From: Kiritimatiellia bacterium
Lineage (GTDB): Bacteria > Verrucomicrobiota > Kiritimatiellia > RFP12 > UBA1067
Reading direction: 5' to 3'
DNA length: 36,180 nt
Assembly (NCBI GenBank): GCA_017544725.1
Contig: JAFYDR010000170.1
Coordinates: forward strand, 1 to 36,180
Shown here: positions 9,268-36,180 of the stretch, one piece after another
Numbering within the stretch: position 1 is the stretch's first letter
Layout: each line of letters starts with the position of its first letter
The notes under the pieces: generated by a model
Seen by the model: the letters and a program-made list of their open reading frames with translations, nothing else
The model's database searches: none
What the model was told of the DNA's origin: nothing
Position numbers and translations under genes: made by a program

Positions 9268-9389
9268 TGACGAGGCGGCAGTGAAAAATGAAGAATGAAA
9301 GAGGGATGTGCATGTCGTTTGTCGCGTGTCAGAAGTGTCGAAAAAAGGCGTCGGCGGTAGTTCTGTTCGCGGGCTTAACCATGCCCGCG
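9268..9389. repeat. short dispersed repeats and REP-like hairpin
   Basis: Just past the HAD gene, GGCGGCAGTGAAAAATGA then GAATGAA matches, inverted, the sequence at 318-370. At 9368-9389 a perfect hairpin follows (CGCGGGC, 8-base loop TTAACCAT, GCCCGCG), similar in stem and AACC loop to the hairpins at 22 and 4557. The interval holds no gene. Confidence 0.55.
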
Positions 9390-9439
9390 CATTCCGTCCC
9401 TTGCCTAAAAGCGAGCGGCTGAAAGATGCCGTCCCGCAT

Positions 9440-10657: not shown

Positions 10658-10826
10658 TTTACCCACATTCTCCCGTTGATGCAATTTCAAAACCATGGAA
10701 TTGTTGAAATCGTGATATTTTTTTGTGGAAATGTGACTTTCAGGGAAAAAGGAAATGTGGTAAGATAGAACTGTGTGTTGATTTAGAATTTCCGATGAAC
10801 CAGTACCGGAAAAGGAGAGATGTGCA
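10658..10826. promoter_or_regulatory. divergent promoter region between regulator and LamG gene
   Basis: 169 bases of AT-rich DNA, with a run of eight T near 10720-10730. A -10-like TAAGAT lies at 10761-10766, but with only a weak -35 (TTTCAG) at 17 bases. A strong AAAAGGAGAG ribosome site precedes the LamG ATG. The XylR-type regulator would be expected to bind here; I cannot point to a specific operator. Confidence 0.4.
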
Positions 10827-20479: not shown

Positions 20480-20890
20480 ATGAAAACACGTGAAGACAGA
20501 AAGAAAGTCCTTATCGGAAACTCGTTCCCGTTCAGCCTGATTCGGTGTAAACGGCTGATTGTAGAGAGCGAATCGATTCGTGTGCTACAGGAGACCCTTA
20601 CTGGGGCAGAGGTGGTATCCTTTTGGGGGCACACGAACACGCGTGCGGCGGCGGAAGCTGTGCTGGGTGTATCGCTTGCTCCGCACACGGAACGTCCCGC
20701 TGTCACGCTCTCGCCCACAAACCTCCCGATGCTGGACGGTGATGTGTTCGACACGTGTTGGTTACTTTCGCCAGACTATCCTGAGGGATTCCGTCCGGCA
20801 ATCGGCGTGGAGGTCGGTCCCGAGCAGATCGAGGGCTGGCATGTTCTGAAGCTTACATGGCAACAAGAAAGGAATGATGATGGAAACTGA
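20480..20890 (+). CDS. small protein, candidate DUF1874/Crn2-like ring nuclease
   Basis: 136 residues. Its outline fits DUF1874 (AcrIII-1/Crn2) ring nucleases: a first strand with VLIGNSFPFSLI (10-21), then SFWGHTNTRAAAEAVLGVSL (47-66) where the Gly-His would be the catalytic His of the family's SIGH motif, an R-P-A-V-T-L strand, and a C-terminal GPEQIEGWHVLKLTW. Crn2 enzymes cleave cyclic tetra-adenylate and switch off type III signalling. It overlaps the start of cmr2 by 11 bases, so its level is tied to the cyclase. The family match is by eye and distant; it may be another small Csx protein. The TTG six codons upstream is less likely than the ATG. Confidence 0.55.
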   Translation: MKTREDRKKVLIGNSFPFSLIRCKRLIVESESIRVLQETLTGAEVVSFWGHTNTRAAAEAVLGVSLAPHTERPAVTLSPTNLPMLDGDVFDTCWLLSPDYPEGFRPAIGVEVGPEQIEGWHVLKLTWQQERNDDGN

Positions 20891-22289
20891 AGGAAAAGAA
20901 CTTCTCCTGTTCCAGTTAGGGCCGGTACAGGAGTTTATTGCGCAAGCCGCTACGGTCGATGACTTGTGGGCAGGATCGTACTTGTTATCCAAACTCGTAT
21001 GGGTAGGATTGCAAAAGATTCCAGACAAGGAAGGCAATGTCGTATTCCCCGACTTGTCAACCGATACCGTGCGCAAGGCGTTGGAGGTTGAAAAGATACC
21101 TACAATCCCTAATCGTTTTCTCGCGTGGGTACCCGCTGGGCAGGGCAAGGATCTTGCGGATGCGATCAAAAAGGCCGTCAAGGTCAAGCTGGAGGAATAT
21201 GTTGGGAAACTTAAACTCGGCGATCTAGGGGAGAAAGCCGCGAGGAAGCAGGTTGACCAGTTTCTACAGATGACATGGGCGGTTCTTCCTATAGATGAAG
21301 TTTCCGGCAATATGGGTGATGACTATAAAGCCATCGGTCGCAAACTCGCGATGCGTCGTAATGTACGTGAGTTCGCTCCTTGGGAAGAATCCCTCGAACT
21401 TGGGCGTAAAGACTTTCTTTCCGGTAAGGAGACCGCCATCCGTGACGGACGCAGCGCGATGAACCTCATAAAGCAGATACTGCCTAATGTTGAGAATCGT
21501 ACGTGTGAAGATCTGGAAGAAAAGTACAAGTATATCGCCGTCATTGCCATGGATGGAGACCGTATGGGCGAGAATCTGTCATCTTTCGAGAACGAAGAGG
21601 AACATCGTGCTTTCAGCGCGGCACTTGCTCAGTTCGCGGGCGAGGTCGAGCCGATTGTGAAAGAGTTTCACGGCGTACTGATCTACGACGGTGGCGATGA
21701 TGTCCTCGCTGTAGTCCCTGCCCAACAGGCGATTGACTGCACCGACAAACTCCAGCAAAAGTTTGGCGAGAGGGTAAAGGGGAAAAGCGATAAGTCGTTG
21801 ACGGCGTCCGCCGGAATCGCCGTGGGACACAGAGATGTACCGTTGCAGGACTTAGTCCATAAAGCCCATACCGCCGAATCGCGTGCAAAGAGCGACTACC
21901 ACCGCAACGCGCTTGCAGTGAGTGTGTTCAAACGTTCTGGTGAAATTCTGGAGTGGGGCTGTAAGTGGGGATCTAAAGCCCTTTACATTTACAGGCAACT
22001 TCGTGATTCGCTGGACGAGAATCTTTCGGGGCGTTTCCCCTACAAGCTGGCGGAACTTTTACAACCATACGGAGACATTACCAAAGACATGAAGGACGTC
22101 GTTCTGAGCGAATTTGAACACGCATGGGAGCGTTCTACGCAGAAGGCCATGTCTGCTGATCTCGCCGATGCGGTCAGTAAATATCTGGGTGATGTGTTTG
22201 GCGAAAGTGGTAAGCCGAAGGACTTCCTCGATCTGTTCTTGTGCGAAACATTCATTGATCGTCCGCGTGAAGGAGAAGACAATGACTGA
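20880..22289 (+). CDS. cmr2: Cmr2/Cas10, type III-B cyclase subunit without HD domain
   Basis: 469 residues. N-terminal Cmr2 signature LGPVQEFIAQAATVDDLWAG then SYLLSKL. Two Palm motifs are clear: AMDGDRMG (about 224-231) in the first and YDGGDDVLAV (269-278) in the second; the intact GGDD implies cyclic oligonucleotide synthesis from ATP upon target RNA binding. There is no N-terminal HD nuclease, so it should not cut DNA by that route, and the protein is short for the family. It forms the head of the Cmr complex with Cmr3-6 and Cmr1. AAAGGA lies 6 bases before the third of three consecutive Met codons, which I take as start. It overlaps cmr3 by 8 bases. Confidence 0.95.
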   Translation: METEGKELLLFQLGPVQEFIAQAATVDDLWAGSYLLSKLVWVGLQKIPDKEGNVVFPDLSTDTVRKALEVEKIPTIPNRFLAWVPAGQGKDLADAIKKAVKVKLEEYVGKLKLGDLGEKAARKQVDQFLQMTWAVLPIDEVSGNMGDDYKAIGRKLAMRRNVREFAPWEESLELGRKDFLSGKETAIRDGRSAMNLIKQILPNVENRTCEDLEEKYKYIAVIAMDGDRMGENLSSFENEEEHRAFSAALAQFAGEVEPIVKEFHGVLIYDGGDDVLAVVPAQQAIDCTDKLQQKFGERVKGKSDKSLTASAGIAVGHRDVPLQDLVHKAHTAESRAKSDYHRNALAVSVFKRSGEILEWGCKWGSKALYIYRQLRDSLDENLSGRFPYKLAELLQPYGDITKDMKDVVLSEFEHAWERSTQKAMSADLADAVSKYLGDVFGESGKPKDFLDLFLCETFIDRPREGEDND

Positions 22290-23508
22290 ACGAAAATATG
22301 AACTGAAGCCGCGCGACGTGCTGTTCTTCCGTGACGCCCGTCCGATGGATGCTGACAAGGCAATGAAAGATGTGCGGAACATTGGGCATGGGGCGATTTG
22401 GCCACGTCCAGACCATCTCTTCAAGGGTGTGATACATGCGCTTCTGAAGGAAACGCCAGATGTAACTTTCGGCGATTTCCCTTCGTTGAAGGTCGTGGGA
22501 CCGTACCCTGTCAAGGACGGCACTCTGTATTTGCCTCGTCCGCTCGACTGGGATATGCTGATCGAGCTTTGTACCGGCACCGACCTTCCAGAACCGCTCG
22601 AATACGGTTTTATCGATCATATTGACGGAAAGAAAAAGTATCCAGCTTGGATAACGGTCGATGACTATGCCAAATATCTTCGTGGAGAAGACAGAGGACA
22701 TTACGACACAGAGGAGACCGAGGTCGATGACAATGGCAAGAAGATTGCCCGAAAGGTCGTCAAATTCCCGTACTCGGATGGTGAGCTTTTTGGTGTTGAG
22801 CCGCGAATCGGCACAACACTTGATTCTGTTACGGGTGCCTCAAAACGCATCAATGGGAAACACGCCTCCGGTCAGTACCAGGGAGAATATCTTCGGCTCA
22901 AGAAAAACGTATCCATGTGGTGTGCCGTTGATACAGGAAAGATTGGAATGAAAGCGGATGCTCAAGACGCGCCGGAAGTGCCGCGTTCGTTCGTTATGGG
23001 CGGACAAAACGGCATTGTGACGCATTGTGAAACGGATATCGATCTTGCCGCCAGATTCCCACGTCCGAAGGTTGAAACGGACGGAGAGATATTCGTTCGT
23101 TGGACGTTGATCGCGCCAGCCCTTTTCCAGCAGACAGGCTGGCTTCCAGGGTGGTGCAGGGATAGCCGTAAGGATATCAATGAGGAGGAACGTAAAATGT
23201 CACTTGGGAAAGTGATGTTCCCCGACTGCGAGGGATGCAGCCTTGTCGGAGCCTGTACCGGCAAACCGATCTACTTCTCTGGCTGGGACATGGCCATCGG
23301 TATCAAACCGACCATGTTTGCGGTGCCGCAAGGTTCCGTCTATCTTTTCCGTTGTGAGAATAAGGCGAGTGCTGAGGCACTCATCAACAAGCTTCACTTG
23401 CAACGCAAATCCGATCTCGGACCACAGGGGTTCGGAATCGGACTCTGTTCCATCGTCAAACCGGATACACGCCTGCCCGCAGAGGGTCAGGATCACGAGA
23501 ACCAATGA
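22282..23508 (+). CDS. cmr3: Cmr3 (Cas5 group) of the type III-B complex
   Basis: 408 residues. The N terminus has the Cmr3 signature PRDVLFFRDARPMDAD, the RAMP-fold strand that grips the crRNA 5' handle; further on, PRPDHLFKGVIHALL (near 37-51) and a C-terminal PQGFGIGLCSIVK glycine-rich loop are typical of RAMP proteins. Known role: binds the 8-nt crRNA tag and joins Cmr2 to the backbone. The ATG follows AAGGAG by 7 bases and overlaps the cmr2 stop by 8. The frame stays open upstream inside cmr2, but this start fits best. Confidence 0.92.
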   Translation: MTERKYELKPRDVLFFRDARPMDADKAMKDVRNIGHGAIWPRPDHLFKGVIHALLKETPDVTFGDFPSLKVVGPYPVKDGTLYLPRPLDWDMLIELCTGTDLPEPLEYGFIDHIDGKKKYPAWITVDDYAKYLRGEDRGHYDTEETEVDDNGKKIARKVVKFPYSDGELFGVEPRIGTTLDSVTGASKRINGKHASGQYQGEYLRLKKNVSMWCAVDTGKIGMKADAQDAPEVPRSFVMGGQNGIVTHCETDIDLAARFPRPKVETDGEIFVRWTLIAPALFQQTGWLPGWCRDSRKDINEEERKMSLGKVMFPDCEGCSLVGACTGKPIYFSGWDMAIGIKPTMFAVPQGSVYLFRCENKASAEALINKLHLQRKSDLGPQGFGIGLCSIVKPDTRLPAEGQDHENQ

Positions 23509-23537
23509 ATGAACTTCACTAAGAAAGGAAACAAACC

Positions 23538-24401
23538 ATGAACACGAAACTGCTCACCATCTTCACACGCACCCCGCTACATGTGGGTTGCGGATCATCC
23601 GTAGGTGCGGTCGATCAGCCGGTCGCGCGCGAGCGCCACACGCGTTTCCCGATCATTCCCGGCAGCGCCATCAAGGGCGTGCTGGCGGATCTGTGGGAGG
23701 ACGAAAAGGAAGAGAAAACGAACAAGAAAGGGGAGAAGGTTCTTGTCCGCTGTAAAGATGCTCGCATCTATTTCGGTAGTGACGACATGGATGATGCAGA
23801 ATCTGGTAAAATTGCCTTCGGTGAGGCAAGGCTTCTGGCGTTTCCTGTGCGTTCCGCGAAGGGCTGCTTTGCATTCATTACCTCGCCACTGAGCCTTGAG
23901 CGCTACAAACGTGATGCAGGACTTGGTGATGATTTTAAGATTCCAGAACTTAAAGATGGTCAGACATGCCTTGCCGGCAGCGAGGTGACCTTCACCGACC
24001 GCAAGGCGGTCGTGCTTGAGGAGTATCGTTTCGAGAAAACCGGAGATTTTCCTGCCGATTGGGCAGAGAAACTGTGTGCGCTTGCGGACGACGCCGTGTT
24101 GAACGGTGGCAAGGACCGTTTCGTCCTTGTTCATGATGAGGACATGTCGTTCTTCGCAGAAAACGCCTGTCAGATCTCGCAGCACGTCTCGATTGATTCT
24201 AAAACTGGCGCGGCCGCCGAGGGTAAGCTTTTCAACCAGGAGGAGGTGCCGTCCGAAACCTTGTTTTACGCGCCGTTGACCGAACTCAGCGCCAAAGTTA
24301 ACTATAAGCCTTTTATGGACAGAATTGGAACTTCTCCACTTGTACAGTTCGGTGGCAAGGGAACCTCCGGTATCGGATATTGCTCGGTGAAACTCGTTTG
24401 A
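23538..24401 (+). CDS. cmr4: Cmr4 (Cas7 group), backbone and RNA-cleaving subunit
   Basis: 287 residues. The N terminus carries the Cmr4 block TPLHVGCGSSVGAVDQPVAR; D26 occupies the place of the catalytic Asp known from Pyrococcus Cmr4, so target RNA cleavage every six nucleotides is expected. FPIIPGSAIKGVLADL follows (the RAMP glycine loop), and GKIAFGEARLLAFPVRS and EEYRFEK are also family-typical. The last residues GGKGTSGIGYCSVKL form the usual C-terminal Gly-rich loop. AAAGGAA ahead of the ATG gives a good ribosome site. It lies 29 bases after cmr3 and 20 bases before cmr5. Confidence 0.95.
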   Translation: MNTKLLTIFTRTPLHVGCGSSVGAVDQPVARERHTRFPIIPGSAIKGVLADLWEDEKEEKTNKKGEKVLVRCKDARIYFGSDDMDDAESGKIAFGEARLLAFPVRSAKGCFAFITSPLSLERYKRDAGLGDDFKIPELKDGQTCLAGSEVTFTDRKAVVLEEYRFEKTGDFPADWAEKLCALADDAVLNGGKDRFVLVHDEDMSFFAENACQISQHVSIDSKTGAAAEGKLFNQEEVPSETLFYAPLTELSAKVNYKPFMDRIGTSPLVQFGGKGTSGIGYCSVKLV

Positions 24402-24421
24402 AAATGAAAGGAACTATGACT

Positions 24422-24823
24422 ATGCAGAACCTCAATCAGATACGTGCGCGCCATGTACTTGAGTTTGCTAACTTTTGCAAGGTCAAAGGTAAAAATGGTG
24501 GCGAAGTAATCAAGGACATACCACCCGTTATTATGAATAACGGCATTATGGCAGCTTTGGCGTACTCGTTGGAAGAGAAGGTGAAGAAAGATAATAAGAC
24601 TGGAAGGGTTAGTGTCGAGTACCATCCGTGGCGTACGGTTTTTGATGCGATAGCCATCCATCTTTCCTCTGACGAGATAGGAATGATTCCTCGTGAGAAG
24701 AATTCTGCGGAGCTGCTGCTTGATTACCTTGCTGATGACGCATCAAGTACGATGCTTCGCGATATTACCGCCGAGGCCGGAGAATGGCTCAACTTCGCTC
24801 GCCGTCTTGTGAGAAAGGAATAG
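24422..24823 (+). CDS. cmr5: Cmr5 (Cas11 group), small subunit
   Basis: 133 residues, all-helical by pattern, as usual for Cmr5. Start MQNLNQIRARHVLEFANF and VIMNNGIMAALAYSLEEK agree with the family pattern (Q-x-R-A-x-x-A...; N-G-L-x-x-x-L-A-Y). HPWRTVFDAIAIHLSS and a C-terminal EAGEWLNFARRLVRKE follow. It stacks along the filament and stabilises the target strand. Of several near Met codons this one has AAAGGA at the best distance (9 bases). Three bases separate it from cmr6. Confidence 0.88.
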   Translation: MQNLNQIRARHVLEFANFCKVKGKNGGEVIKDIPPVIMNNGIMAALAYSLEEKVKKDNKTGRVSVEYHPWRTVFDAIAIHLSSDEIGMIPREKNSAELLLDYLADDASSTMLRDITAEAGEWLNFARRLVRKE

Positions 24824-24826
24824 CCA

Positions 24827-26254
24827 ATGCCAACATCAGTAAAACCTCCGATTGCGCCAGATGTTGCGGAAGTGATCGGCGATTGCGCAGAGAATGTGGA
24901 GAATCGGTCGCTTCTATTGGACAAGTTCATACTGCACAAGTCATGGCCGTCGGTTAGTTCGACGCACCAACGGATGCGGATGGACGATGCCTCGCGATGG
25001 AGTTTCATACGTATGACACAGAACGGGGAAAGATTCCTTGAGCATGAAAAAAAGGTTCATGAAAGTAAACGAGATCGCGCCAAAGACGATGGTAATCGTG
25101 ACAAAGTTGAAGAACATCAAGCTTGTGTAGACATCCTGCAATGTTTAAGTAAATGCGCTTGTCGTAAACTACCGGGGAACCTTGCGGCCCAAAAGCTTGA
25201 ACAGAATCGTAAGTTCGCACAAGCGCTGTCGAAGCGTCCTGGAGAAACTGCCGTGGTGTATGGTGAGCTCCAGGGACGTCTGATCGTAAATCTGTCGGAC
25301 AGCCTCATTCAGAACGCAGGCATCTGTCTCGATAGGAATACGGGCCTGCCATATATTCCTGGATCGGCTGTAAAGGGTGTAGCCCGTCATGCTGCTCTCT
25401 CGCATCTGCGGGATGGAGGATGGACGATTGGTGAGTTTATGCACGTCTTTGGTAGCTCTGAGGCAGACTTTCGTGATAAAGGCGAGCTGAGCGGATTTGT
25501 CACTTCGGTGCCTGAGAAAGAGCGCACATTGAAAGGCGGTGTGGATTTCCTTTCAGCGCAGCCGATTACCGAACCTACTATCGTTGTGGACATTTCCAAT
25601 GTGCATTATCCGAAATACTACCAATCGGGCGATGTTCACGACTTGGCAAATGAAAACCCCAAGCCGAATACCTTCCCTGTTGTGGAGAAAGGAGTGAGGT
25701 ACGCTTTCTGCATCGTCGAAAACGGGAAAACCGTTGACGGGAAGCTGTTCGAGAAGGCTAAATCAGTCCTGATAGAGGCGATAACTGTATCCGGTGTCGG
25801 GGCAAAGACTGGTGCTGGCTACGGCTGGTTCAAGGATGTGACGGAAATCATGGAGGCAGAAGTCAAGCGGGAAGCGGAAGCAGCTGAAGCTCAACGTGCA
25901 GAGGCTGAAGCCAAGGCAAAAAGGGAAGCAGAACTTGTTGCAATTGAAGCCGAAGCCAGGCGTAGAGCAGAGTTGTCTCCGTTTGAGCGTATACTGGAAA
26001 GCTGGAACAATCAGCCCAATCTCAAGGCGATTGTTAAAGGAAGGTATATTGCCCAATTCGTCTCATGTTCGGATGACGAAAAAAAGGGGATTGTCGAGGT
26101 ATTACGGATGCCCGACGGTATCGGGGCGAGAGTCTGGGCTGTTCTCAAAGGAACCTCGCCAGAAGATTCCAAGAAGAAATTTTGGAATCGAACGGTGGAA
26201 CAGGCAATTCGCGCTTATTGCAGGAACACGCTTAAACTAGGGAAGATGCCATGA
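24827..26254 (+). CDS. cmr6: Cmr6 (Cas7 group) with long C-terminal extension
   Basis: 475 residues, clearly longer than the usual ~250-340. The RAMP core spans about 140-340: GLPYIPGSAVKGVARHAALS (173-192), GVDFLSAQPI, VDISNVHYPKYYQ and the Gly-rich loop GVGAKTGAGYGWF (323-335). It caps the Cmr backbone at the crRNA 3' side. Residues 340-385 are an Ala/Glu/Arg/Lys-rich coiled coil. The last ~90 residues (SPFERILESWNNQP; FWNRTVEQAIRAYCRNTLKL) form a helical domain that is not part of standard Cmr6. The N-terminal 130 residues are also mostly helical with a charged segment. Its stop overlaps the cmr1 ATG by four bases. Confidence 0.92.
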   Translation: MPTSVKPPIAPDVAEVIGDCAENVENRSLLLDKFILHKSWPSVSSTHQRMRMDDASRWSFIRMTQNGERFLEHEKKVHESKRDRAKDDGNRDKVEEHQACVDILQCLSKCACRKLPGNLAAQKLEQNRKFAQALSKRPGETAVVYGELQGRLIVNLSDSLIQNAGICLDRNTGLPYIPGSAVKGVARHAALSHLRDGGWTIGEFMHVFGSSEADFRDKGELSGFVTSVPEKERTLKGGVDFLSAQPITEPTIVVDISNVHYPKYYQSGDVHDLANENPKPNTFPVVEKGVRYAFCIVENGKTVDGKLFEKAKSVLIEAITVSGVGAKTGAGYGWFKDVTEIMEAEVKREAEAAEAQRAEAEAKAKREAELVAIEAEARRRAELSPFERILESWNNQPNLKAIVKGRYIAQFVSCSDDEKKGIVEVLRMPDGIGARVWAVLKGTSPEDSKKKFWNRTVEQAIRAYCRNTLKLGKMP

Positions 26255-27144
26255 ACAGGACGATTGACCTTGAATTCATTACCCCGCTCTTTTCTCATGG
26301 TGCGACGGATCAGCCGGAGATTCGTCCCGCATCGATACGAGGGCAGCTACACGCATGGTTCCGCATCGTGGGCGGAGACATAGAGGCGGAACGCCGTGTG
26401 TTCGGAGGTATCAAGCAGAGGACGGCCGATCTCCACAGAATGCCAAGCCGCGAAGAGACGTGGGCGAGTAGGATTGTTGTGCGCGTCTCTGATGTCAAAG
26501 GAACAAAGAGGTCGTTTCCAACCTTACCGCACAAGCGGAAGGATATGTCCGCTCCGCGCATGGCATTTGACATCGGCACGAAGTGCCGTATTGTAATCAT
26601 GGATCGGCTAAGCGGTTTGGCAAAGAAAAACGAAGAACTTTTCAACCGTGCCGTCAACGCCTGGTTACTTATGGGAACACTTGGATACCGCGCAACGCGT
26701 GCGGCTGGCAGCTTCGTCTGGAATGATGATTCATTCCCCATGCCGACTGCCCCGCTTGCTTATCAGGATACTTGCCGTAACCTGCTTCACGAATCAAAAG
26801 CGAAGGCCAAGGTTGCCGTTCTCAACCATGAGTATAACTCTGCCGAGGACGCTCGGTGTGATATTTCCGATTCCCTTGGTGGCAGGGGTGATCGTTTTGG
26901 GCAAAGCGATCTTGCAAGGCTTCACGACCCACTCGGTTTCATCAATGGTCGAGGAGATAGGAAACGCAAGACATCCCCTCTGAAGTACCGGATCGTTCGC
27001 GTTGAAAACAAGTACCGGATCGTTGCTTTCTGGGATGGTCGCTCGGAAGTAACGAACAATTCGGACAACGATCTCTACAACATTGTTGATTTACTTGCAA
27101 AACGGAAACCAAAAATAGGAGAGCAACTTAAGAACGCCTTTTAG
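26251..27144 (+). CDS. cmr1: Cmr1 (Cas7 group)
   Basis: 297 residues. The N terminus is typical Cmr1: LEFITPLFSHGATDQPEIRP, then RGQLHAWFRIVGG and RRVFGG. A central helix LLMGTLGYRATRAAGSF matches the family's LGGIGRRSRRGFGS-like segment, with the Arg-rich loop partly changed. Cmr1 caps the end of the complex near the crRNA 3' end beside Cmr6. The four-base overlap with cmr6 shows translational coupling. It is the last complex subunit; 14 bases separate it from a transposase-like gene. Confidence 0.92.
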   Translation: MNRTIDLEFITPLFSHGATDQPEIRPASIRGQLHAWFRIVGGDIEAERRVFGGIKQRTADLHRMPSREETWASRIVVRVSDVKGTKRSFPTLPHKRKDMSAPRMAFDIGTKCRIVIMDRLSGLAKKNEELFNRAVNAWLLMGTLGYRATRAAGSFVWNDDSFPMPTAPLAYQDTCRNLLHESKAKAKVAVLNHEYNSAEDARCDISDSLGGRGDRFGQSDLARLHDPLGFINGRGDRKRKTSPLKYRIVRVENKYRIVAFWDGRSEVTNNSDNDLYNIVDLLAKRKPKIGEQLKNAF

Positions 27145-27158: not shown

Positions 27159-28184
27159 ATGTCCACCCCCCTGCGCAATCCAAACATCGATTATGGCGAC
27201 GGATGGTTTTTCGTCACCATACAGGTCTCGTTGAACAAGAGCGTGTTCGGCGCGATCGTAGGGGAGGAGTGCGTTTTGAATGAGTTGGGCGCGGCAGTAC
27301 ACGATGCCTGGATTGCGCATCCCGCACACAATCCGGGGTTGTACATCGATACGTTTGTCGTGATGCCCAACCATTTTCATGCGATTGTGCGCGTGACGGG
27401 TGGAAATGGGATAAATTTGCTTTCTCGTGTGGTTGGTAGTTTCAAAAGCTATACGAGTACACTGTACCGTAAGCTTAAGGAGACGAGAAAATGCGTGGAC
27501 ATCGGCACAAAATTGTGGCAAGAGAGTTACTACGATAATCTTATTTCAAGCCATGAAGAGTTATTGAACATCCGCAACTACATTCAAAATAACCCCCGCA
27601 ATTGGAATCGCGACCGTTTCGGTCCCGTCACGACCTACTGCGTCGGTAATTCCGAACTACTGAACCGCCAGTTGGTGGCATTCGTAGCCAGCGAGGGCAG
27701 AGCACTGGATGGAGGACAGTGCCCTCACCCGGATGGAGGACAGTGCCTCCATCCCCACGAGATTAAACAGTGGATGTTGCCCACCAGCCCCGCTACCCAC
27801 AGTCTCGTGACCACCGGGGCACCGCACCCTCCCTTCTACAGTCTCGTGGTCACGGGGGTACTGCCCCCCGTGATTTCGACATTTACCAGCGCACAAGAGC
27901 GCGAAATCTTTCGTAAATGCCTACGTAAGGAACGGGCATTCGTGTGGGTGTGTCCCGGAGGCATTCCCAATCCTTTACCACCGCGTATTGTGGCGGCTTG
28001 CGAGGCCGGGTGGGGATTTGTGTGTTCGCCGGTACCATCGGGTACCGGTGTCAATAAGCAACGCGCCATCTGGTGCAATCAGTACGTCATTCGACACGCC
28101 GCGAGCGTGTGGGCAGGGCATATCTGTCCGAGCGGTAGCCTGGAGACGATCTTAACGGAACTGAAAGGGAAAGAATCAATATGA
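27159..28184 (+). CDS. REP-associated tyrosine transposase (RAYT) with extra C-terminal domain
   Basis: 341 residues. Residues 1-170 are a Y1 transposase of the RAYT type: the HUH motif sits in MPNHFHAIV (H72, H74), and NIRNYIQNNP (Y141) carries the nucleophile. All catalytic residues are present. Residues about 175-240 are a low-complexity linker encoded by hairpin DNA. Residues about 245-335 form a further alpha/beta domain (EIFRKCLRKERAFVWVCPGG; AIWCNQYVIRHAASVWAGHI) that I do not recognise with certainty; it has a Rossmann/SLOG-like look. Its stop overlaps the next CARF gene by four bases, so it is embedded in the operon rather than merely inserted. It may mobilise hairpin repeats like those found elsewhere in the window (inference). 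Confidence 0.88.
   Translation: MSTPLRNPNIDYGDGWFFVTIQVSLNKSVFGAIVGEECVLNELGAAVHDAWIAHPAHNPGLYIDTFVVMPNHFHAIVRVTGGNGINLLSRVVGSFKSYTSTLYRKLKETRKCVDIGTKLWQESYYDNLISSHEELLNIRNYIQNNPRNWNRDRFGPVTTYCVGNSELLNRQLVAFVASEGRALDGGQCPHPDGGQCLHPHEIKQWMLPTSPATHSLVTTGAPHPPFYSLVVTGVLPPVISTFTSAQEREIFRKCLRKERAFVWVCPGGIPNPLPPRIVAACEAGWGFVCSPVPSGTGVNKQRAIWCNQYVIRHAASVWAGHICPSGSLETILTELKGKESI
27693..27872 (+). repeat. cluster of REP-like hairpins inside the transposase gene
   Basis: Three stem-loops lie in the linker-coding part. The first (27693-27726) pairs GAGG...GCACTG with CAGTGC...CCTC. The second (27731-27754) is perfect, GGATGGAGG / CCTCCATCC, with loop ACAGTG. The third (27851-27872) is perfect, CACGGGGG / CCCCCGTG. 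The words GGATGGAGGACAGTGCC and CAGTCTCGTG each occur twice. They look like REP units that entered, or were born in, the RAYT coding sequence while keeping the frame. Confidence 0.75.
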
Positions 28185-29434
28185 AACGTTTCATTTCTTT
28201 TCTTGGAACAGGCAACTACCAGCTATGCCGATATCGGCATGGGTGCGAGACTAGTCCAGAAGTCACATACGTTCAGACAGCGACCTGCTTCTTCACGCGC
28301 TGCGACCACGCGATGGTGTTTTGTACAGTCGGTGCCAAGTCAAGGCATGCGAATGGGCTTGTCGCCGAGTTTAAACAACATGGTCTGCCCGATGCGGAAA
28401 TTGTCGATATCCCAGACGGCGCTTCGGAAGAGCAATTGTGGACAATCTTTAGGATTGTCCGCGATGCCGTGGCTGAAGACGACGAGATTGTCTTCGATGT
28501 CACACATTCCTTCCGTTCGTTGCCCGTTGTTATGACGGTTCTGTTGCGTTACCTCGCAGTTGCAAAGGGGGTTACCCTCGGTGCCTGTCTTTACGGGGCA
28601 TGGGAGGCTAGAGGTGGAGACGATGCACCCATTGCCCCCATTTTCGACCTTACGCCATTCTTCGCCCTCGACGACTGGACACACGCAATACGAGGTTTTG
28701 AACTTTTCGGCGACGCATCGGAACTAAAGAATCTTTCTGTTCTACGCCTCGGCCCCCTTTGCCGGAACGACGATGCCGCCCGTTCGCTCAATAGTACCAT
28801 CAAGCAGATGGCGTTATTCGCCGACAACGTGCGTCTCGCCAATCTTGGGACTGACTCAGAAGGCGAGGGGATTTGCTCATTGGCTCTCAAAAACATCGCT
28901 TCACATCTCGCGAAGAAAGAGATAGTCGAAGGTATCCCTGAACTATCTCCGATTCTGAACCGGGTAGAGAGGTGTTTTTCGGAATACGGTGACAACGATA
29001 TCAGTAACGGTTTCCGCGGTGCCCGGTGGGCTGCAGCCCATGGTCTGATACCTCAAGCCTATACGTTGCTTCAAGAGACGACGGTCTCCTTTGTCTGTGA
29101 ACGCTTCAAGGACATGGTTCCTGAAACTCGAACCGGAATCAAAGTTAGAGAGTTCGTCTCCGATGTTCTTGCCAATGCAGCCAAGAATGGCTGTGATTGG
29201 ACTCGCTGGACCCCTCAAGAAGAAATCGAATCTGCCAGAAACTTTGCTGAAAGGCTGGGAAAGGACCTCTTGCCAGCTTTCGCGCGTCTTGTCCGACGCC
29301 GCAACGCTCTCAATCACGCTGGTACAAACGTACAGGAGCCGGTTTCTTCGACTTCGCCCGATTACAAGGCAGAAGGCTTCTGTGACCTTGCAGATGCTAT
29401 TGAACACGCGCTTATGGAATTGAATAGCCAATGA
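28181..29434 (+). CDS. CARF-HEPN ribonuclease, Csx1/TM1812-like
   Basis: 417 residues. N-terminal CARF domain: FLGTGNYQLCRY (7-18) and the DxTH motif DVTHSFRSLP (106-115), typical of the TM1812/DxTHG group of CRISPR-associated proteins. The C-terminal part is helical and carries RRRNALNH (R374-x4-H379), the HEPN RNase motif. By family, binding of cyclic oligoadenylate to the CARF dimer activates non-specific RNA cleavage and slows infected cells. It follows the RAYT gene with a four-base overlap and overlaps the next CARF gene by four, so three genes are coupled in a row. All motifs needed for activity are visible; the exact messenger (cA4 or cA6) is not. Confidence 0.9.
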   Translation: MKRFISFLGTGNYQLCRYRHGCETSPEVTYVQTATCFFTRCDHAMVFCTVGAKSRHANGLVAEFKQHGLPDAEIVDIPDGASEEQLWTIFRIVRDAVAEDDEIVFDVTHSFRSLPVVMTVLLRYLAVAKGVTLGACLYGAWEARGGDDAPIAPIFDLTPFFALDDWTHAIRGFELFGDASELKNLSVLRLGPLCRNDDAARSLNSTIKQMALFADNVRLANLGTDSEGEGICSLALKNIASHLAKKEIVEGIPELSPILNRVERCFSEYGDNDISNGFRGARWAAAHGLIPQAYTLLQETTVSFVCERFKDMVPETRTGIKVREFVSDVLANAAKNGCDWTRWTPQEEIESARNFAERLGKDLLPAFARLVRRRNALNHAGTNVQEPVSSTSPDYKAEGFCDLADAIEHALMELNSQ

Positions 29435-30981
29435 ACACTACCTATATCTGTACCCTAGGCACCTCAATCGCGAACAGACTTCCCAACCAGTTGCTCCGTG
29501 ACCGTCAGGAGAAAAACCTCCCATGGAACGCCGATGACTCCGAATTTGAGAAGGCGTTGTGTGAACGCATACGTGCCATCTCGAAACAGGGAGATGAGCG
29601 TGAAACTTGTTGTGCAGAGACAGCAATCCTATCGAAGATGAAACTTGACGAACAGGACAAGGTTCTTCTTCTTGCCACGGATACATGTCTTGGACGAATG
29701 TGTGGTGATGCAGTTCAGTCAGTTCTTACGCGATGCCACGGACTTGATGTGGATGACGTGTCTGTCATTCGTATAGAGGGGCTACAAGTTGCGGATGCGA
29801 ACCGTCTTCGCAATTTGGGTCTCAAGAATCTGCTGTCCACTGTCGAGAAGTGTGTAAGAGAAGGGCACGAGTCGGGATGCGATGTCTGCCTCTGTCCAAA
29901 CGGCGGTTACAAAGGGGTTGTTCCGTTTCTCACGCTTGCCGGCATGATTCTCCACTGCAAGGTCGTGTATTCATTCGAATTCGCAGGTTCCGTTATAGTG
30001 CTTCCCCCTCTTCCGTTCGCTTTGGATGAACAGGCCTATCTTCGCGCTCGCGATGCTTTGAGCTGTCTGTACGATAGAATTGAGATGCCGACGGAGCAGT
30101 TCCTTTCCATGGTTGCGGATCTACAGCCTGAGGAACGAGACCGATTCCTTGGGTTTACCGAGCCAGGAACCAAGTCTGGGTTCGTCACGTTCTCTCCTCT
30201 CGTCGGTATCGCAACTACGGGGGCGGAGGTTCGGACGGCTCCGCTATCAGACCAGGCAGAGAAAGACTTGGAGAAGTTGGCGCAGAGCGGTGGAGCTGCC
30301 GCCTGTCGCAGATTGGTACTTCAGTCTCAAGATCCCCTCTATCGCGCCGCGCATTCCGAATCGAAAAATTTGACTGACTTGGTAGCGATCCAACGTCCCC
30401 GTACAGCTGAACGCGTCTTCGGATACGTTCATGATGGACGTTTCCTAGTCTGCCGCATTTTTGCCAGTCACAACGACTATATCCGATACATGGACAAACA
30501 ACAGCCACGCCGAAAGGACTTTCCACCGGAGATTTTCCACGACGTGAATTTCGAGGACGGATCTGTTGATGAAGCTGATGAAATTCCTATTGAGGAATGG
30601 GGCGATTTGAAGCGAGAGCGGGACGAATTGCGAAAGAAATGTGAAGCCGCAAATGAGGAGATTACTGTTGTCCGCCAGCAATACAATGAGGCAAAGCGCA
30701 TTGGAATAGATGCCGAGAAGAAGGCGACAGATTTCAAACAACTTTGGACAAAAGCGAACAACGAATTGCAATGGCTTCGGCAGAAAGCCGACAATCTTGC
30801 GACCGCACTTGTAAAAACCGAGAAGAAGGAAAGCGCACTCCGCAGTCAGCTGGAATCGACCCATCGTATGGTCGAGGAAAAGAAACGTGAAGTGGCAGAT
30901 CTGAATGAGCGTCTCCGCGAATATCAGAATCGTGGCTTTTTCCGGCGGCTCGCTGATGTTTTTAGGATGAAGAAGGCATGA
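29431..30981 (+). CDS. CARF protein with RelE-like and coiled-coil regions (Cami1-like)
   Basis: 516 residues. Residues 1-200 are a CARF domain of the APE2256 type (YICTLGTSIANRL; VLLLATDTCLGRMCGDAV; PNGGYKGVVPFLTLAG). Residues about 300-355 resemble a RelE-fold toxin: LYRAAHSESKNLTDLVAIQR, then AERVFGYVHDGRFLVCRIFA and the terminal NDYIRYM strand. Residues 390-500 are a long coiled coil, and the tail FFRRLADVFRMKK is basic. A CARF-RelE protein, Cami1, is a known type III effector that cuts mRNA at the ribosome upon messenger binding. The RelE part is short and read by eye, so this assignment is provisional; the CARF call is firm. The long coiled coil looks unlike what I expect for Cami1 and may bind a partner. 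Confidence 0.72.
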   Translation: MNTTYICTLGTSIANRLPNQLLRDRQEKNLPWNADDSEFEKALCERIRAISKQGDERETCCAETAILSKMKLDEQDKVLLLATDTCLGRMCGDAVQSVLTRCHGLDVDDVSVIRIEGLQVADANRLRNLGLKNLLSTVEKCVREGHESGCDVCLCPNGGYKGVVPFLTLAGMILHCKVVYSFEFAGSVIVLPPLPFALDEQAYLRARDALSCLYDRIEMPTEQFLSMVADLQPEERDRFLGFTEPGTKSGFVTFSPLVGIATTGAEVRTAPLSDQAEKDLEKLAQSGGAAACRRLVLQSQDPLYRAAHSESKNLTDLVAIQRPRTAERVFGYVHDGRFLVCRIFASHNDYIRYMDKQQPRRKDFPPEIFHDVNFEDGSVDEADEIPIEEWGDLKRERDELRKKCEAANEEITVVRQQYNEAKRIGIDAEKKATDFKQLWTKANNELQWLRQKADNLATALVKTEKKESALRSQLESTHRMVEEKKREVADLNERLREYQNRGFFRRLADVFRMKKA

Positions 30982-31011: not shown

Positions 31012-32028
31012 ATGAACGAAGTGTATGACATCAACACCAAAGACCTCGACACCGTGGCGGACATTCTCGCGCTAATTGCCGACACGCACCGCGTCGCGAT
31101 TTCTGCGCACACCTACCCGGACGGCGATGCAGTAGGTTCCTGTATCGCTATGGCAGGATTTCTCCGTGCCGTAAGGAAGGATGTGACCATCGTTCTGCCG
31201 AAAGAAGATGTCGGTCCCGTACGTGTGTTGGATGGTTTCGAGGGCATCGTTGACCCCGATGCATTCGATTTCTCCGTGCCGCCCGACCTCTTCGTGTGCC
31301 TTGACTGCGCCGATCCCTCGCGAATCTGCGACGCGCGCATCCGCGAATGGGTCGGGAAGATCCCCACCTTGAACATCGACCATCATGGCCGGGAACTCTT
31401 CGGAACCAAAAACTTTGTGGTCAAGGACGCATCAAGCACCGGAGAACTCGTTTACGATATCGCCCGTGCAGCAGGGTGGACAATCGACCGCCCGATTGCC
31501 GAAGCTCTTTGGTGTGCCATCCTCACCGACACGTGCCGATTCACAACGCCTTCTACGAGACCTTCAACGCTCCGCACCGCCGCCGCGCTCGCCGAGAAAG
31601 GCGTCCGTATCGCTTGGCTTGCCGAGCAAATCTACCAGCGCGAATCCTTCAACGCATTCGATCTTCGCCGTCGTGCCATAAACTCCCTCGAGTGCTGGTT
31701 CGACGGACGCGTGGTAACCATTGCCCTATCAACCGGCGACTTCGCGGAAACAGGATGCAAGAAGCAGGACGGCGAGACATTCCCTGAAATTCCTAACTCC
31801 CTTGAAGGTGTTCAGCTTGCGGTCTTCTTTTACCCGTTCCCCATCTCCGATTCGGGGCACACACGGATAAGTGCCCGTTCACACGCGGATTCACCCATTA
31901 CAGCCAAGATGCTCGCCGCGCACTTTGGCGGAGGTGGTCACGAACACTCCGCAGCCGCCACGCCAGCCCTGTCGATTGCGGAAACCAAACGGGCTGTTCA
32001 GGACTGGCTCGCGACTGTCTTCAATTAA
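31012..32028 (+). CDS. DHH/DHHA1 phosphoesterase, NrnA-like
   Basis: 338 residues, full length for NrnA-type enzymes. DHH domain motifs: SAHTYPDGDAVGS (31-43), CLDCADP (97-102), NIDHHGREL (121-129) and LTDTCRF (171-177), the metal-binding set for two Mn ions. DHHA1 domain near the end with HFGGGGHEHSAAA (304-316). Family members hydrolyse short oligonucleotides, pAp, or pApA made from c-di-AMP. In some type III-B loci a DHH enzyme (NrnN) degrades the SAM-AMP messenger. The gene lies 30 bases after the CARF-RelE gene and 28 before the Csx3-fusion, so in this operon it may clear messenger or its linear products (inference). A housekeeping nanoRNase role remains possible. Confidence 0.9.
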   Translation: MNEVYDINTKDLDTVADILALIADTHRVAISAHTYPDGDAVGSCIAMAGFLRAVRKDVTIVLPKEDVGPVRVLDGFEGIVDPDAFDFSVPPDLFVCLDCADPSRICDARIREWVGKIPTLNIDHHGRELFGTKNFVVKDASSTGELVYDIARAAGWTIDRPIAEALWCAILTDTCRFTTPSTRPSTLRTAAALAEKGVRIAWLAEQIYQRESFNAFDLRRRAINSLECWFDGRVVTIALSTGDFAETGCKKQDGETFPEIPNSLEGVQLAVFFYPFPISDSGHTRISARSHADSPITAKMLAAHFGGGGHEHSAAATPALSIAETKRAVQDWLATVFN

Positions 32029-32056: not shown

Positions 32057-34837
32057 ATGAGCGAAAACATGACTTCAACGACTGACACACCTGTACCGCC
32101 AGAGTTTCTTTCGGTTTCAAGCCGACCAGATGGCTCTCTCGTGATCGAATTCCGCACGAAGAAGATTGGTCCGTCAGGTTCCGACGGTACGGAACAATCT
32201 GATCGAATCAACATTCTTCCAGGACATTACGAAAGATTTCGTGAATGGATCGCCCACATCGACCTCGCGGGGCGTACGGTTGTCGCCACTGGTCGCGGTC
32301 CAGTTGAGGGTTACTTCGCCATCGGCTATTACGCCACGCTCTTCAGAGCGGACAGAATTGTTTTTGAGGGTGCCAACCACACACCGCGCATCGAAATGCC
32401 GTCCCCCAACGCACAGCCTTCCGATAAGTCCTGGCTCCGCATTGAGAGCCAAAACGGAACCGTTACCGTCACATGTGAGAAGCCATCCTCCACCAATGGT
32501 AAGTGGAGCGAAGATGAAATCGGGTGTTCGGCTCCGGCTCTTCTGCCACACACGGCACTCTCCGTCACCTTTACCGGTTCAGGTGCCACCCACATGTATT
32601 TGCTCTTGGGCATTTCCGCAGCACGCGCAGGACTCGCAGATGTCCGCGTCACAAAACCAGCCATTCCGTATGCAATTCGTTTCACGCCTGAGCAAGCTGG
32701 CGAGACCATCGCCATCGCCAGCGGGAAAACCGGTGTGGTTGTCGGAATCATTGGAGACCCAAACAGCGGTAAATCTGTCTTTTCTCGCGCTTTTTCCATG
32801 TCTCTACGCGAGTCGATGCCCGTTTGGTTCCAGTCATGGATCTACGATTGCGACCTCGCCAGCCCCACACCAGATTGGTATTGTACCGCACTAATCAATG
32901 CCAAGTCTGATGCGGCCATAGAGAAGGAGTATAAGGCTCTTCGCGACTCTCAAAAAGTGAAATGGAACAGTGACATGGAAAGGCGTTGCGCCAACGACCT
33001 CGGTATTCTCCGCACCAATCTTGATCTTGTCATTGCCGACCTACCGGGCGGCAGGCACCCCAAAGAAGGGGAACCCTATTTTGAGCCCAAGCGTATCTCG
33101 GGTGAATCGCGGGCCAACATGTTCCGTCAATGCGATGCCTTCATTCTCATCTGCCGCAAAGATAGGCACGATGTGATTCTTAAGGGCTGGATTGACGCCC
33201 TTGCAAAATACGGTCTTCAAGACCGCATTTGGGCCATTCTCGATTCTTCTGAACCCAATTCTGAATTTTCCGTTTCGCCTCTCGTCCCAAATGAAGCTGG
33301 CATCTTCTGCGGTGATATCCGTGGCCTTGACCGTGGGCATCCCGCAGGCGAAACAGGTCAGAAACTCGTCGAGGCAGTCCGTCCACTCGTTCGTTCCCTC
33401 ACCGCCATCCCCGTTGTGAATGCCGCGCGTGCGGCCACGGCTACAGCCTTCCTGACCAGCGACAAGGGTACGCGTTACGGGGCGGCTGTCCGTTCCGCTT
33501 CCACCGGGCGCATATTTGCCGCCGGTCAATATTCTTCCTTCAACCACTCGACCAACATCCACGCCGAGATGAATGTCCTCGCTCAGGCGGCAACCGCCGG
33601 AGAACCGGATGTTGACATTCTCGCCATTACCTCGACCTCTTCTGCCGAAGCATCGCCTTGCGGTGTCTGCCGTCAGGTCATCCTCGAACACGCAACACGA
33701 ACCGGACGCGACTTCGACATCGCGCTCACGGCTCCTGGTGCCCACCCTACCATCGTTTCCGTTTCCAAGCTTCTCCCGCATGCTTGGCGGATGCCCGGCG
33801 GCAATGCTGCCGCCGACATACGCGACTTCCCCGACGTGGAATCCATCTTCAATGAATCTGGATCTCCGCGCATCGGTTCAGAGTTCATTGTCCCACATGT
33901 CCATCCAAGCACCCCGTACTGTATGGCACTTGTCTGGGATGACGCTTTTACCCACGACACGGCTCTTCTCAAGTTTAAATACGAACAGACCTCTGACGAC
34001 CGCTGGATCAAGCTCCCGCACGCCTTCACGGAATCTGCCGCGTACCTCCGCTACCTCACCGACAAGCGACGCGGTAGCCGCACCTTTCATGGGCTCGCCA
34101 CGCTCAAGCTCCCTATTCGCAGACAAAAGGATGGAACCGCCCAAATTCTTTTCAAGAATCCGATCCCGCTCTCCGGTGAGATGCTTCGGCTCTGTGCAGA
34201 GGTCATTTTTGCGCCAGCCGGTATAGATGCCGCGACTTGCGTCTTCGTCACTGGCTCGCGTATGACCGGTTTCGCCACCGCTGATTCCGATTGGGACCTC
34301 TGCGTCGTCGCTACGCCGAAGCAGATTGAGGCCCTCCGCGCCCGCATCGCCGCCCTCGCCGCCGAGGGACGCGTGACCTTCCCAGATAAGTCCCGCAGCT
34401 GGAAACTCATCAAGGACACTTTCCCTGGGGCAACTCAGGACGGAGGTGCTCGTATCCATGCCGAACGCCGTTATGCCGAATCTTTCCGACTCGACGACAT
34501 TCCAATCTCCTTTCTCTTCGTACACCCTAACTCTGGCAACCGTGATTTCGCCTTCCCCTGCCCTTTCACTACCATAGGACGTACCGTAATTTCCGGTCGT
34601 GTCATCGATGCTTCGTACGCACCATACAAACGCTCCGAGAGCATCATTGAGACACCAAACCATAGCCGTATCCGCCTTCTCTGCTATCACAAGATTGCGA
34701 ATTTGCTGAAGGAAGGGGATAACATCTCAGCCACCGGAGTGCTCTGCCACCACGCTCCCGACAGTATCATGAGCGAGTGCCAGAAGACGCTCGTTCTCTC
34801 TGCACCTGCGCTCGATAAGCTTGTATGGTTACCATGA
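32057..34837 (+). CDS. Csx3-like / P-loop NTPase / deaminase / nucleotidyltransferase fusion
   Basis: 926 residues. Residues ~25-110 resemble Csx3: a strand then GRTVVATGRGPVEGYFAIG (72-90), where GRGP matches the Csx3 loop. Residues ~125-210 look like a second diverged copy (TGSGATHMYLLLGISAARAG). Residues ~225-455 are a P-loop NTPase of the kind fused to Csx3: Walker A GDPNSGKS (233-240), DLPGG (328-332), RQCDAFILICRKD. Residues ~455-580 carry the cytidine-deaminase zinc site: HAE (502-504) and PCGVC (534-538). Residues ~705-860 are a nucleotidyltransferase: GS (733-734) with SDWDL (D745, D747). The His and Asp used by the studied Csx3 for ring cleavage are not evident, so the Csx3 part may only sense. 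The ATG follows AAAAGGA; the open frame extends upstream into the DHH gene. Csx3-ATPase fusions are known; I know of none with these two added enzymes. Confidence 0.78.
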   Translation: MSENMTSTTDTPVPPEFLSVSSRPDGSLVIEFRTKKIGPSGSDGTEQSDRINILPGHYERFREWIAHIDLAGRTVVATGRGPVEGYFAIGYYATLFRADRIVFEGANHTPRIEMPSPNAQPSDKSWLRIESQNGTVTVTCEKPSSTNGKWSEDEIGCSAPALLPHTALSVTFTGSGATHMYLLLGISAARAGLADVRVTKPAIPYAIRFTPEQAGETIAIASGKTGVVVGIIGDPNSGKSVFSRAFSMSLRESMPVWFQSWIYDCDLASPTPDWYCTALINAKSDAAIEKEYKALRDSQKVKWNSDMERRCANDLGILRTNLDLVIADLPGGRHPKEGEPYFEPKRISGESRANMFRQCDAFILICRKDRHDVILKGWIDALAKYGLQDRIWAILDSSEPNSEFSVSPLVPNEAGIFCGDIRGLDRGHPAGETGQKLVEAVRPLVRSLTAIPVVNAARAATATAFLTSDKGTRYGAAVRSASTGRIFAAGQYSSFNHSTNIHAEMNVLAQAATAGEPDVDILAITSTSSAEASPCGVCRQVILEHATRTGRDFDIALTAPGAHPTIVSVSKLLPHAWRMPGGNAAADIRDFPDVESIFNESGSPRIGSEFIVPHVHPSTPYCMALVWDDAFTHDTALLKFKYEQTSDDRWIKLPHAFTESAAYLRYLTDKRRGSRTFHGLATLKLPIRRQKDGTAQILFKNPIPLSGEMLRLCAEVIFAPAGIDAATCVFVTGSRMTGFATADSDWDLCVVATPKQIEALRARIAALAAEGRVTFPDKSRSWKLIKDTFPGATQDGGARIHAERRYAESFRLDDIPISFLFVHPNSGNRDFAFPCPFTTIGRTVISGRVIDASYAPYKRSESIIETPNHSRIRLLCYHKIANLLKEGDNISATGVLCHHAPDSIMSECQKTLVLSAPALDKLVWLP

Positions 34838-34893: not shown

Positions 34894-35559
34894 ATGACCG
34901 ACACAACAGGAAACAACACAGAACGCCAGTATTCGCCCAATACCATCTATATCGAGGGGCTTGAACTTGCCGGCAAGTCCACTATTTGCCGTCTGCTCCG
35001 CGATTATCTCAAGGCAGAATACCGGCACTGCTCTTTCCTTTCCGACAATCCCATTTACAATTGCGCCAGTGCCCTGCATGTAGCGCAGAAAGTAAAGAGC
35101 GATACGCTAGGCGGCATCTTCCTAGGCTCCGTCATGCGCGACCTGGAACGCTACACGCCGCCAGACCACTTCGTTGTCCAGGACTCAACGTCAGTTCTCC
35201 GTTCCATTGCCTACCACTCCGTCATCGGTGACCCTGGCCTTGCCGACGCTTTCAGCAAACTTCTTCCCCGTTGTCCGCATTTCGGCGCGTCGTTCGTTCT
35301 ATGGTCAAGCAATGAAGTCCGCCTCAAGCGTCTCAAAGGCCGCATATCTCGCCACCACGACCTACCCAAGGATTTACTTGTTCGCGACGAGCCCGACAAG
35401 TTCGCACGCATGCAGGACATCATGATCGAGACGGCGAAGGAGTTCTTTGACGCGGAAGTCGTCGACACGTCCAACATGGAGCAAGAAGGTGAAAAGGAGC
35501 GGCTTGTCGAATACCTAGCATCGAAGCTTCGTCAGGCAGCCAGTCAGCCGAATGTATGA
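34894..35559 (+). CDS. dTMP kinase-like P-loop nucleotide kinase
   Basis: 221 residues. The N-terminal IYIEGLELAGKSTICRLL (18-35) is the P-loop of the thymidylate/deoxynucleoside kinase group. The usual DR(Y/H) base-site motif is changed to QDS in VVQDSTSVLRSIAY, so substrate use may differ from ordinary Tmk. A C-terminal LKRLKGRISRHHDLPKDLL fits the lid region. It probably phosphorylates a (deoxy)nucleotide. AAAGGAG precedes the ATG. It lies 56 bases after the Csx3-fusion and overlaps the next gene by four, which links it to this putative nucleotide module. Chromosomal tmk genes usually lie elsewhere, so this is likely a dedicated copy (inference). Confidence 0.75.
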   Translation: MTDTTGNNTERQYSPNTIYIEGLELAGKSTICRLLRDYLKAEYRHCSFLSDNPIYNCASALHVAQKVKSDTLGGIFLGSVMRDLERYTPPDHFVVQDSTSVLRSIAYHSVIGDPGLADAFSKLLPRCPHFGASFVLWSSNEVRLKRLKGRISRHHDLPKDLLVRDEPDKFARMQDIMIETAKEFFDAEVVDTSNMEQEGEKERLVEYLASKLRQAASQPNV

Positions 35560-36180
35560 AGGACCGCTTACAGCATAATACGCCTGGCAACGGGATGCTC
35601 GTTCTTCTCCGGCACGGAGAAAGCACGCTCAACGCGGAAGGGCGGTTTTCCGGCTGGGCGGATTGTCCGCTTACTCGGAAAGGCGTACGGCAGGCACACG
35701 AAGCCGGGCGCATTCTTCGCAATGCAGGCGTCGCCTTCGACGCCTGTTTCACGTCGGTTCTCTCGCGGACGAAGGACACTGCGGCAATCGTCCTCGGCGA
35801 AATGGGCCTTGCGGACATTCCCGTCACGGCTGCATGGCAACTGAACGAACGTCATTACGGTACGCTTGAAGGTAGGTTGAGGACCGAAGCGGTCGAGCGA
35901 TACGGTGCCGCCCAAGTCGAGGCCTGGCGTAATGTGCCTAACGCAACGCCGCCTCCGATTGACGACGATGACGTACGCCACCCGCGTCTTCAGCCGCTCT
36001 ATCGGGGCATCGCCCAGGAGAGTCTTCCGTCGTCAGAATGTCTGATGGAAACCTTTCGGCGCGTAATCGGTTTGTTTGATGGCGAGATTCGGCCTCAGGT
36101 GGAATCAGGCAAGCGTGTTCTCGTCGTCACGCATGGCAATCCCATTCGCGCCATTGTTGCACACTTGAATGCTCTTCGGA
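35556..36180 (+). CDS. histidine phosphatase / phosphoglycerate mutase family, cut by window end
   Basis: About 208 residues are visible; the frame is open to the window edge. It has the dPGM/histidine-phosphatase set: LLRHGEST (17-24, catalytic His), GWADCPLTRKGVRQA, ERHYGTLEG (the acid/base Glu and the mutase-type loop), and VTHGNPIRAIV near the end (second His). These fit a 2,3-bisphosphoglycerate-dependent mutase (GpmA type), although VTHG and a poor match in the middle could mean a phosphatase instead. Its ATG overlaps the kinase-like gene's stop by four bases, so it is coupled to the CRISPR operon rather than to glycolysis genes. A role in dephosphorylating nucleotides or messenger products is speculative. 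Confidence 0.82.
   Translation, partial: MKDRLQHNTPGNGMLVLLRHGESTLNAEGRFSGWADCPLTRKGVRQAHEAGRILRNAGVAFDACFTSVLSRTKDTAAIVLGEMGLADIPVTAAWQLNERHYGTLEGRLRTEAVERYGAAQVEAWRNVPNATPPPIDDDDVRHPRLQPLYRGIAQESLPSSECLMETFRRVIGLFDGEIRPQVESGKRVLVVTHGNPIRAIVAHLNALR

Follow-up and report, generated by a model that had tools for sequence, protein, structure and literature searches.

The window, by which we mean the whole 36,180-nucleotide stretch of DNA that was analysed, carries a type III-B CRISPR operon together with several ancillary genes, and behind these lies a gene for a 926-residue multidomain protein that is the subject of this report (Table 1). The Cas10/Cmr2 protein of the operon is short (471 aa) and retains its GGDD motif. 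A gene for a REP-associated tyrosine transposase (Y1_Tnp; 27159-28184) is located between Cmr1 and Csx1, inside the effector operon.

Table 1. Features of the type III-B locus and of the fused protein, in positions of the window.
Feature	Position	Strand	Remarks
CARF5 protein	19256..20458	+	upstream of Cas10
Cas10/Cmr2	20874..22289	+	GGDD cyclase motif at residues 273-276
Cmr3, Cmr4, Cmr5, Cmr6, Cmr1	22114..27144	+	type III-B operon
Csx1 (CARF-HEPN) RNase	28181..29434	+	
CARF7 protein (CARF_RelE-like)	29431..30981	+	
DHH-DHHA1 phosphodiesterase (NrnA-like)	31012..32028	+	DGDA, DHH, GGGGH intact
Fused protein, 926 aa	32057..34837	+	2 x Csx3-like, SIMIBI-type P-loop NTPase, cytidine deaminase, nucleotidyltransferase, OB fold
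Csx3-like domain 1, residues about 60-115	32234..32401	+	GRGP binding loop retained
Csx3-like domain 2, residues about 160-215	32534..32701	+	repeat of domain 1; D69/R71/His equivalents absent
P-loop NTPase, residues 225-450	32729..33406	+	Walker A, DCDxASPTPxWY, DLPGG motifs
Cytidine-deaminase domain, residues about 452-590	33410..33826	+	HAE, PCGVC; QYSSFNH replaces CDA ribose motif
Pol-beta-type nucleotidyltransferase domain, residues about 720-850	34214..34606	+	GSR..G.....SDWD
Probable OB fold, residues about 855-924	34619..34828	+	seen in homologues, undetected in window copy itself
(d)NMP-kinase-like P-loop protein	34894..35559	+	conserved partner of deaminase-nucleotidyltransferase
Phosphoglycerate-mutase-like histidine phosphatase	35556..36179	+	cut by contig end

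The gene for the fused protein is a single uninterrupted frame that runs from the ATG at 32057 to the stop at 34837, and a Shine-Dalgarno-like AAAGGA is found immediately 5' of the ATG. All motifs named in an earlier note on this DNA were present in this one chain at the places given there: GRGP at residue 79 and the similar segment GSGATH at 174, the Walker A motif GDPNSGKS at 233-240, the deaminase motifs HAE (502-504) and PCGVC (534-538), and the nucleotidyltransferase motif GSRMTGFATADSDWD at 733-747. The position behind a type III-B operon, which the note had also described, was borne out as well, with a Cas10 in that operon that carries GGDD, and we add a probable OB fold at the C terminus, which the note had missed. 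In family searches the fused protein matched the Pfam deaminase family (E 2e-7), the NCBIfam tetrameric cytidine deaminase (E 3e-13) and, over its P-loop part, PADLOC Csx3-AAA (E 5e-5); the nucleotidyltransferase match was weak. A chimeric assembly was ruled out as the source of the fusion because the same fusion is present in Treponema.

Relatives of the N-terminal half of about 430 residues, which lack the deaminase, were found in Verrucomicrobiota (including Lentisphaeria), Planctomycetota and Spirochaetota. In an alignment of 20 proteins of this Csx3-NTPase family, GDPxxGKS, DxD, DxPGGxH and further P-loop features were invariant. The PADLOC Csx3-AAA model (PDLC01045) was matched by all 20 members (best 5e-17), the Csx3-only PADLOC model (CARF) by 13 of the 20 (best 3e-8), and Pfam Cas_csx3 by 8 of the 20 (best 2e-5). 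Taken alone, the window copy hits Csx3 models solely over its NTPase part, and its Csx3 assignment rests on these homologues. When compared as family profiles, the two Csx3-like segments aligned with each other as mutual repeats (hhalign probability 98%, E 1.5e-14). In one-to-one comparisons each repeat also aligned with the standalone Csx3 proteins of two Planctomycetota genomes (E 2e-5 / 4e-5, probability 79% / 70%), and these references in turn match the solved Csx3 of A. fulgidus. One standalone Csx3 that served as a reference (L056, 1417-1749, from a Planctomycetota genome) is encoded directly after a CARF-type protein (2-1426).

Csx3 proper is a ring nuclease. Cleavage of cA4 by the A. 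fulgidus protein requires both H60 and D69, and its residues H57, H80 and R71 are invariant (PMC7371418). The ring-nuclease histidines are missing at the aligned positions of both repeats throughout the family, and the D69/R71 region in domain 2 of the window protein reads KPAIP. The glycine-rich binding loop of the SGRGPxW type is retained in domain 1. With the catalytic residues lost and the binding loop kept, cleavage of a messenger appears unlikely, and the Csx3-like domains are likely to be a non-cleaving messenger receptor rather than an off-switch.

The structure of the N-terminal half was predicted with a pLDDT of 86. Its P-loop fold was nearest to HypB, FleN, Get3 and MinD, and at the marginal Foldseek E-values obtained (about 1e-3, none below 1e-3) the domain appears closest to the SIMIBI class rather than to AAA+. 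Because the top 50 Foldseek matches for this model were almost all P-loop proteins, the search neither confirms nor denies a Csx3 fold, and the Csx3 identity is carried by the sequence profiles and not by the structure search. The link to CRISPR signalling that was drawn in the earlier note is thus upheld by the model matches in the family, with Foldseek silent on the Csx3 fold that the note had expected. P-loops related to that of the Csx3-linked NTPase were also seen near residues 410-580 of archaeal and Patescibacteria proteins of about 650 aa (L026, L029, L030, L031 and L032, of which L029 is truncated).

The C-terminal half was analysed in an alignment of six full-length deaminase-nucleotidyltransferase sequences from separate genomes. 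The zinc and catalytic residues of the deaminase were invariant across the six, the domain could be aligned from end to end with the cytidine deaminase of B. subtilis (profile E 4e-18), and its model resembled cytidine deaminase (CDA) structures with a TM to target of 0.75-0.80. It thus has the H/C-A-E and PCxxC zinc and catalytic motifs within a CDA fold. The ribose-contact motif NxE of CDAs is absent: QYS, aligned to NIE of 1ux1, is invariant in the six sequences. Since NxE is replaced by QxS, the substrate may be neither cytidine nor a common nucleotide. The nucleotidyltransferase motif GSRxxGxxxxxSDxD was nearly invariant, with S, R, G, SD and D identical in 6/6, and weak profile matches were obtained to MNT antitoxins, the ANT(3'') adenylyltransferase and gld-2-type enzymes. 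For the third catalytic carboxylate, no conserved D or E was found on the following strands in the six sequences; some nucleotidyltransferases carry this residue elsewhere. As the fold prediction of the C-terminal half was modest (pLDDT 62.8 from six sequences), we used only its deaminase part. The minus strand of L052 encodes, away from cas genes, a single-domain deaminase of 164 aa (6983-7477) that belongs to this unusual subfamily. It is about 51% identical, has the motifs QYSSFNH...TNIHAE...PCGICRQ, and shows only that the domain exists alone. A further match in genome G939 (L053) was dropped, as it is an apparent ordinary deaminase broken by a stop.

A second full-length fusion of 890 aa was found in Treponema (L008). 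In three Gemmatales genomes (L012, L046 and L047) the deaminase-nucleotidyltransferase has a gene of its own, immediately ahead of that for the Csx3-NTPase; in L046 this pair occupies 8966-10357 and 10391-11647. In the Lentisphaerae genome G397, one contig (L017) ends in the Csx3-NTPase gene and the start of a Gfo/Idh gene, and another (L045) opens with the end of a Gfo/Idh-type gene, followed by genes for a TPP enzyme, the kinase and the deaminase-nucleotidyltransferase, from which we infer that the two contigs are neighbours and form one cluster. A gene for an HD_4 protein resembling SpoT hydrolases follows the deaminase-nucleotidyltransferase in this cluster (L045, 652-1200, minus strand). 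In a tree of the N-terminal half, the window protein grouped with the unfused L007 and L009 and not with Treponema, and monophyly of the two fused N-terminal halves was rejected (AU p = 4e-5). Accordingly, either the halves have been joined on more than one occasion or domains have been exchanged, and this in turn favours a functional link between them. A supposed relic of the fusion at the protein end of L016 was discarded, with only about 15 residues alike.

The deaminase-nucleotidyltransferase is rare. It was present in 1/388 sampled genomes of the window's phylum, in 1/200 genomes of the Treponema family and in 3/102 of the Gemmatales order, and a full-length copy was found in 1/392 genomes of a Planctomycetota draw. 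Searches of phages, plasmids and viral contigs gave no relatives of the fused protein or of its deaminase-nucleotidyltransferase half, and so lend no support to an origin in phages or plasmids.

In five of the six genomes that carry the deaminase-nucleotidyltransferase, its gene lies in or near a type III-B or III-D locus, the sixth case being the Treponema fusion on a short contig. L046 is a III-B locus, and L047, L012 and L017 are III-D-like by their Cas7, Cas5 and Cas10 matches; cmr or III-D genes surround the Csx3-NTPase at L007, L010, L012, L017, L046 and L047. Cas10 is likewise present in five of the six genomes, with GGDD as cyclase motif in the window, L046, L047 and G388 and AGDD in G397, and was not found in the Treponema genome assembly. 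Homologues mainly away from CRISPR loci, which the earlier note had named as grounds for giving up the link, are thus not what we observed. The architecture that it had proposed to look for beside other cmr loci does recur, in the form of adjacent parts, at the III-B locus L046 and at the III-D-like loci L012 and L047.

The gene following the fusion encodes a nucleotide-kinase-like protein. Its listed open reading frame begins at 34825, and an ATG preceded by AAGGAG is found at 34894. This gene lies beside or within the module at all three loci that extend far enough (window, L046 and G397) and in 0/14 genomes with the Csx3-NTPase alone (Fisher p 0.018). The earlier proposal of a new kind of type III effector holds as to the type III context; the protein is part of a small gene module that includes this kinase-like enzyme, and not a lone effector. 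A histidine phosphatase as a second conserved partner was weakened as a candidate. The window copy resembles phosphoglycerate mutase, and in Treponema the gene after the fusion (L008, 2850-4934) encodes a ribazole-phosphatase-like histidine phosphatase joined to an ATP-grasp domain of the PPDK / PEP-synthase type. Upstream of the fusion, the DHH-DHHA1 protein is 51% identical to the product of the gene that precedes two Csx3-NTPase genes in L011, where these form a tandem of double-Csx3-NTPase genes (753-3706). Phosphodiesterases of the DHH-DHHA1 class can clear cyclic oligoadenylates (PMC7854544).

In our judgement the chances are evenly balanced that the fused protein acts as an ancillary effector of type III CRISPR, in which a receptor-NTPase and a deaminase-nucleotidyltransferase carry out messenger-gated nucleotide modification. 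In this scheme the two Csx3-derived domains would sense a cyclic oligoadenylate that Cas10 produces, with cA4 as the likeliest ligand because the domains descend from Csx3. Binding of the ligand would change the state of the attached SIMIBI-type NTPase, and this change would release or activate the deaminase-nucleotidyltransferase-OB half. Together with the kinase partner, this half would modify a cytosine-type nucleotide; judged from the sequence, the chemistry is most likely messenger-gated deamination and/or nucleotidyl transfer. The modified product would spoil the nucleotide pool during infection, and the upstream DHH-DHHA1 phosphodiesterase would help to end the signal. No sign of a harmful output was seen in the sequence.

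The genes found around the split forms suggest a different use of the same switch, which we regard as distinctly less probable, yet as the strongest of the alternatives. Here the deaminase-nucleotidyltransferase, the kinase, the TPP enzyme and the Gfo/Idh oxidoreductase would build a modified nucleotide or a nucleotide-linked compound that blocks replication of the phage, with the Csx3-NTPase as the messenger-controlled switch. L046 holds genes for the deaminase-nucleotidyltransferase, the Csx3-NTPase, a Gfo/Idh oxidoreductase, an IorA-like TPP enzyme and the kinase in a row, the same set is spread over the two G397 contigs together with the HD gene, and L012 ends in the start of the same Gfo gene. 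TPP and Gfo proteins are metabolic enzymes without an obvious role in simple nucleotide depletion. However, no close TPP homologue was found in the 75%-complete assembly of the window genome, the window contig ends at 36180 after the kinase and the phosphoglycerate-mutase-like gene, and the enzymes reveal no product.

The OB fold raises the possibility, in our view an improbable one, that the module acts on RNA or DNA, with the OB domain binding the nucleic acid, the deaminase editing its cytosine and the nucleotidyltransferase tailing it. Three of the six members match Pfam tRNA_anti-codon, a nucleic-acid-binding family, over this domain (best 3e-4), there is a weak match to RPA32, RNA-tailing enzymes are among the weak nucleotidyltransferase matches, and the yeast C-to-U editase CDD1 is among the CDA structures nearest to the deaminase. 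By profile and fold, however, this domain belongs with the tetrameric nucleoside deaminases (CDA type) and not with the AID/APOBEC or tRNA-editing type, and small molecules are suggested by the neighbouring kinase, TPP and Gfo genes. A housekeeping protein of nucleotide salvage or signal clearance, whose place in CRISPR loci is accidental or serves to moderate the response, would fit the ring-nuclease activity of Csx3 proper (PMC7371418) and the class of the upstream DHH-DHHA1 protein (PMC7854544), but is very improbable given the loss of the ring-nuclease residues in both repeats, a separate 133-aa cytidine-deaminase-like protein in the window genome (L002) that could serve salvage, and the recurrence of the module across distant lineages, at III-B as well as III-D loci.

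Returning to messenger-gated nucleotide modification, the deaminase-nucleotidyltransferase module provides the NTPase of Csx3-ATPase fusions with a partner of recognisable chemistry, in both fused and split forms. It therefore becomes testable whether messenger binding by a non-cleaving Csx3 drives a nucleotide-modifying enzyme. If so, a CDA-type deaminase and a nucleotidyltransferase would extend the set of known type III CRISPR outputs, and Csx3 could act as a receptor; involvement of the TPP and oxidoreductase partners would place a biosynthetic pathway under CRISPR control. On present evidence from sequences, the module points to an undescribed route by which type III CRISPR may alter the nucleotide chemistry of the infected cell.

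In the literature searched, Csx3 with a cytidine deaminase, a nucleotidyltransferase, a nucleotide kinase or a TPP enzyme was undescribed in type III systems, and no CRISPR-controlled biosynthetic effector of such a kind was found. One of the closest known systems is Crn3 (Csx3) fused to an AAA-ATPase, which has been recorded as of unknown function (PMC12409355). Both proteins have a Csx3-like segment followed by a P-loop domain that matches PADLOC Csx3-AAA, and both occur in type III loci, whereas the protein described here has two Csx3-like repeats without the ring-nuclease histidines, a P-loop domain whose fold comes nearest to SIMIBI NTPases, and a deaminase-nucleotidyltransferase-OB half that is added or encoded alongside. 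The type III CRISPR protein Cad1, in which an adenosine deaminase fused to CARF turns ATP into ITP (PMC11645235), likewise combines a sensor with a nucleotide deaminase. Here, in contrast, the sensor is derived from Csx3 and not from CARF, the deaminase has the zinc CDA fold and is not an adenosine deaminase (family and fold searches gave no match to a CARF or adenosine-deaminase domain in the fused protein), and nucleotidyltransferase and OB domains, an NTPase and a kinase partner are present in addition. Tetrameric cytidine deaminases such as that of B. subtilis (PDB 1jtk/1ux1) share the fold and the zinc and catalytic residues, but in the fused protein NxE has become QxS and the domain sits inside a larger protein. 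The GS...DxD motif and the weak profile matches are shared with minimal nucleotidyltransferases of the MNT type, from which the domain differs by having no conserved third carboxylate, by its fusion to a deaminase and an OB fold, and in that no HEPN toxin partner was seen. Finally, in phage defence by dCTP deaminases, deamination of cytosine nucleotides possibly starves phage replication, and the same may hold for the module described here; the sensor and the deaminase context of those systems are different, and they operate without CRISPR control.
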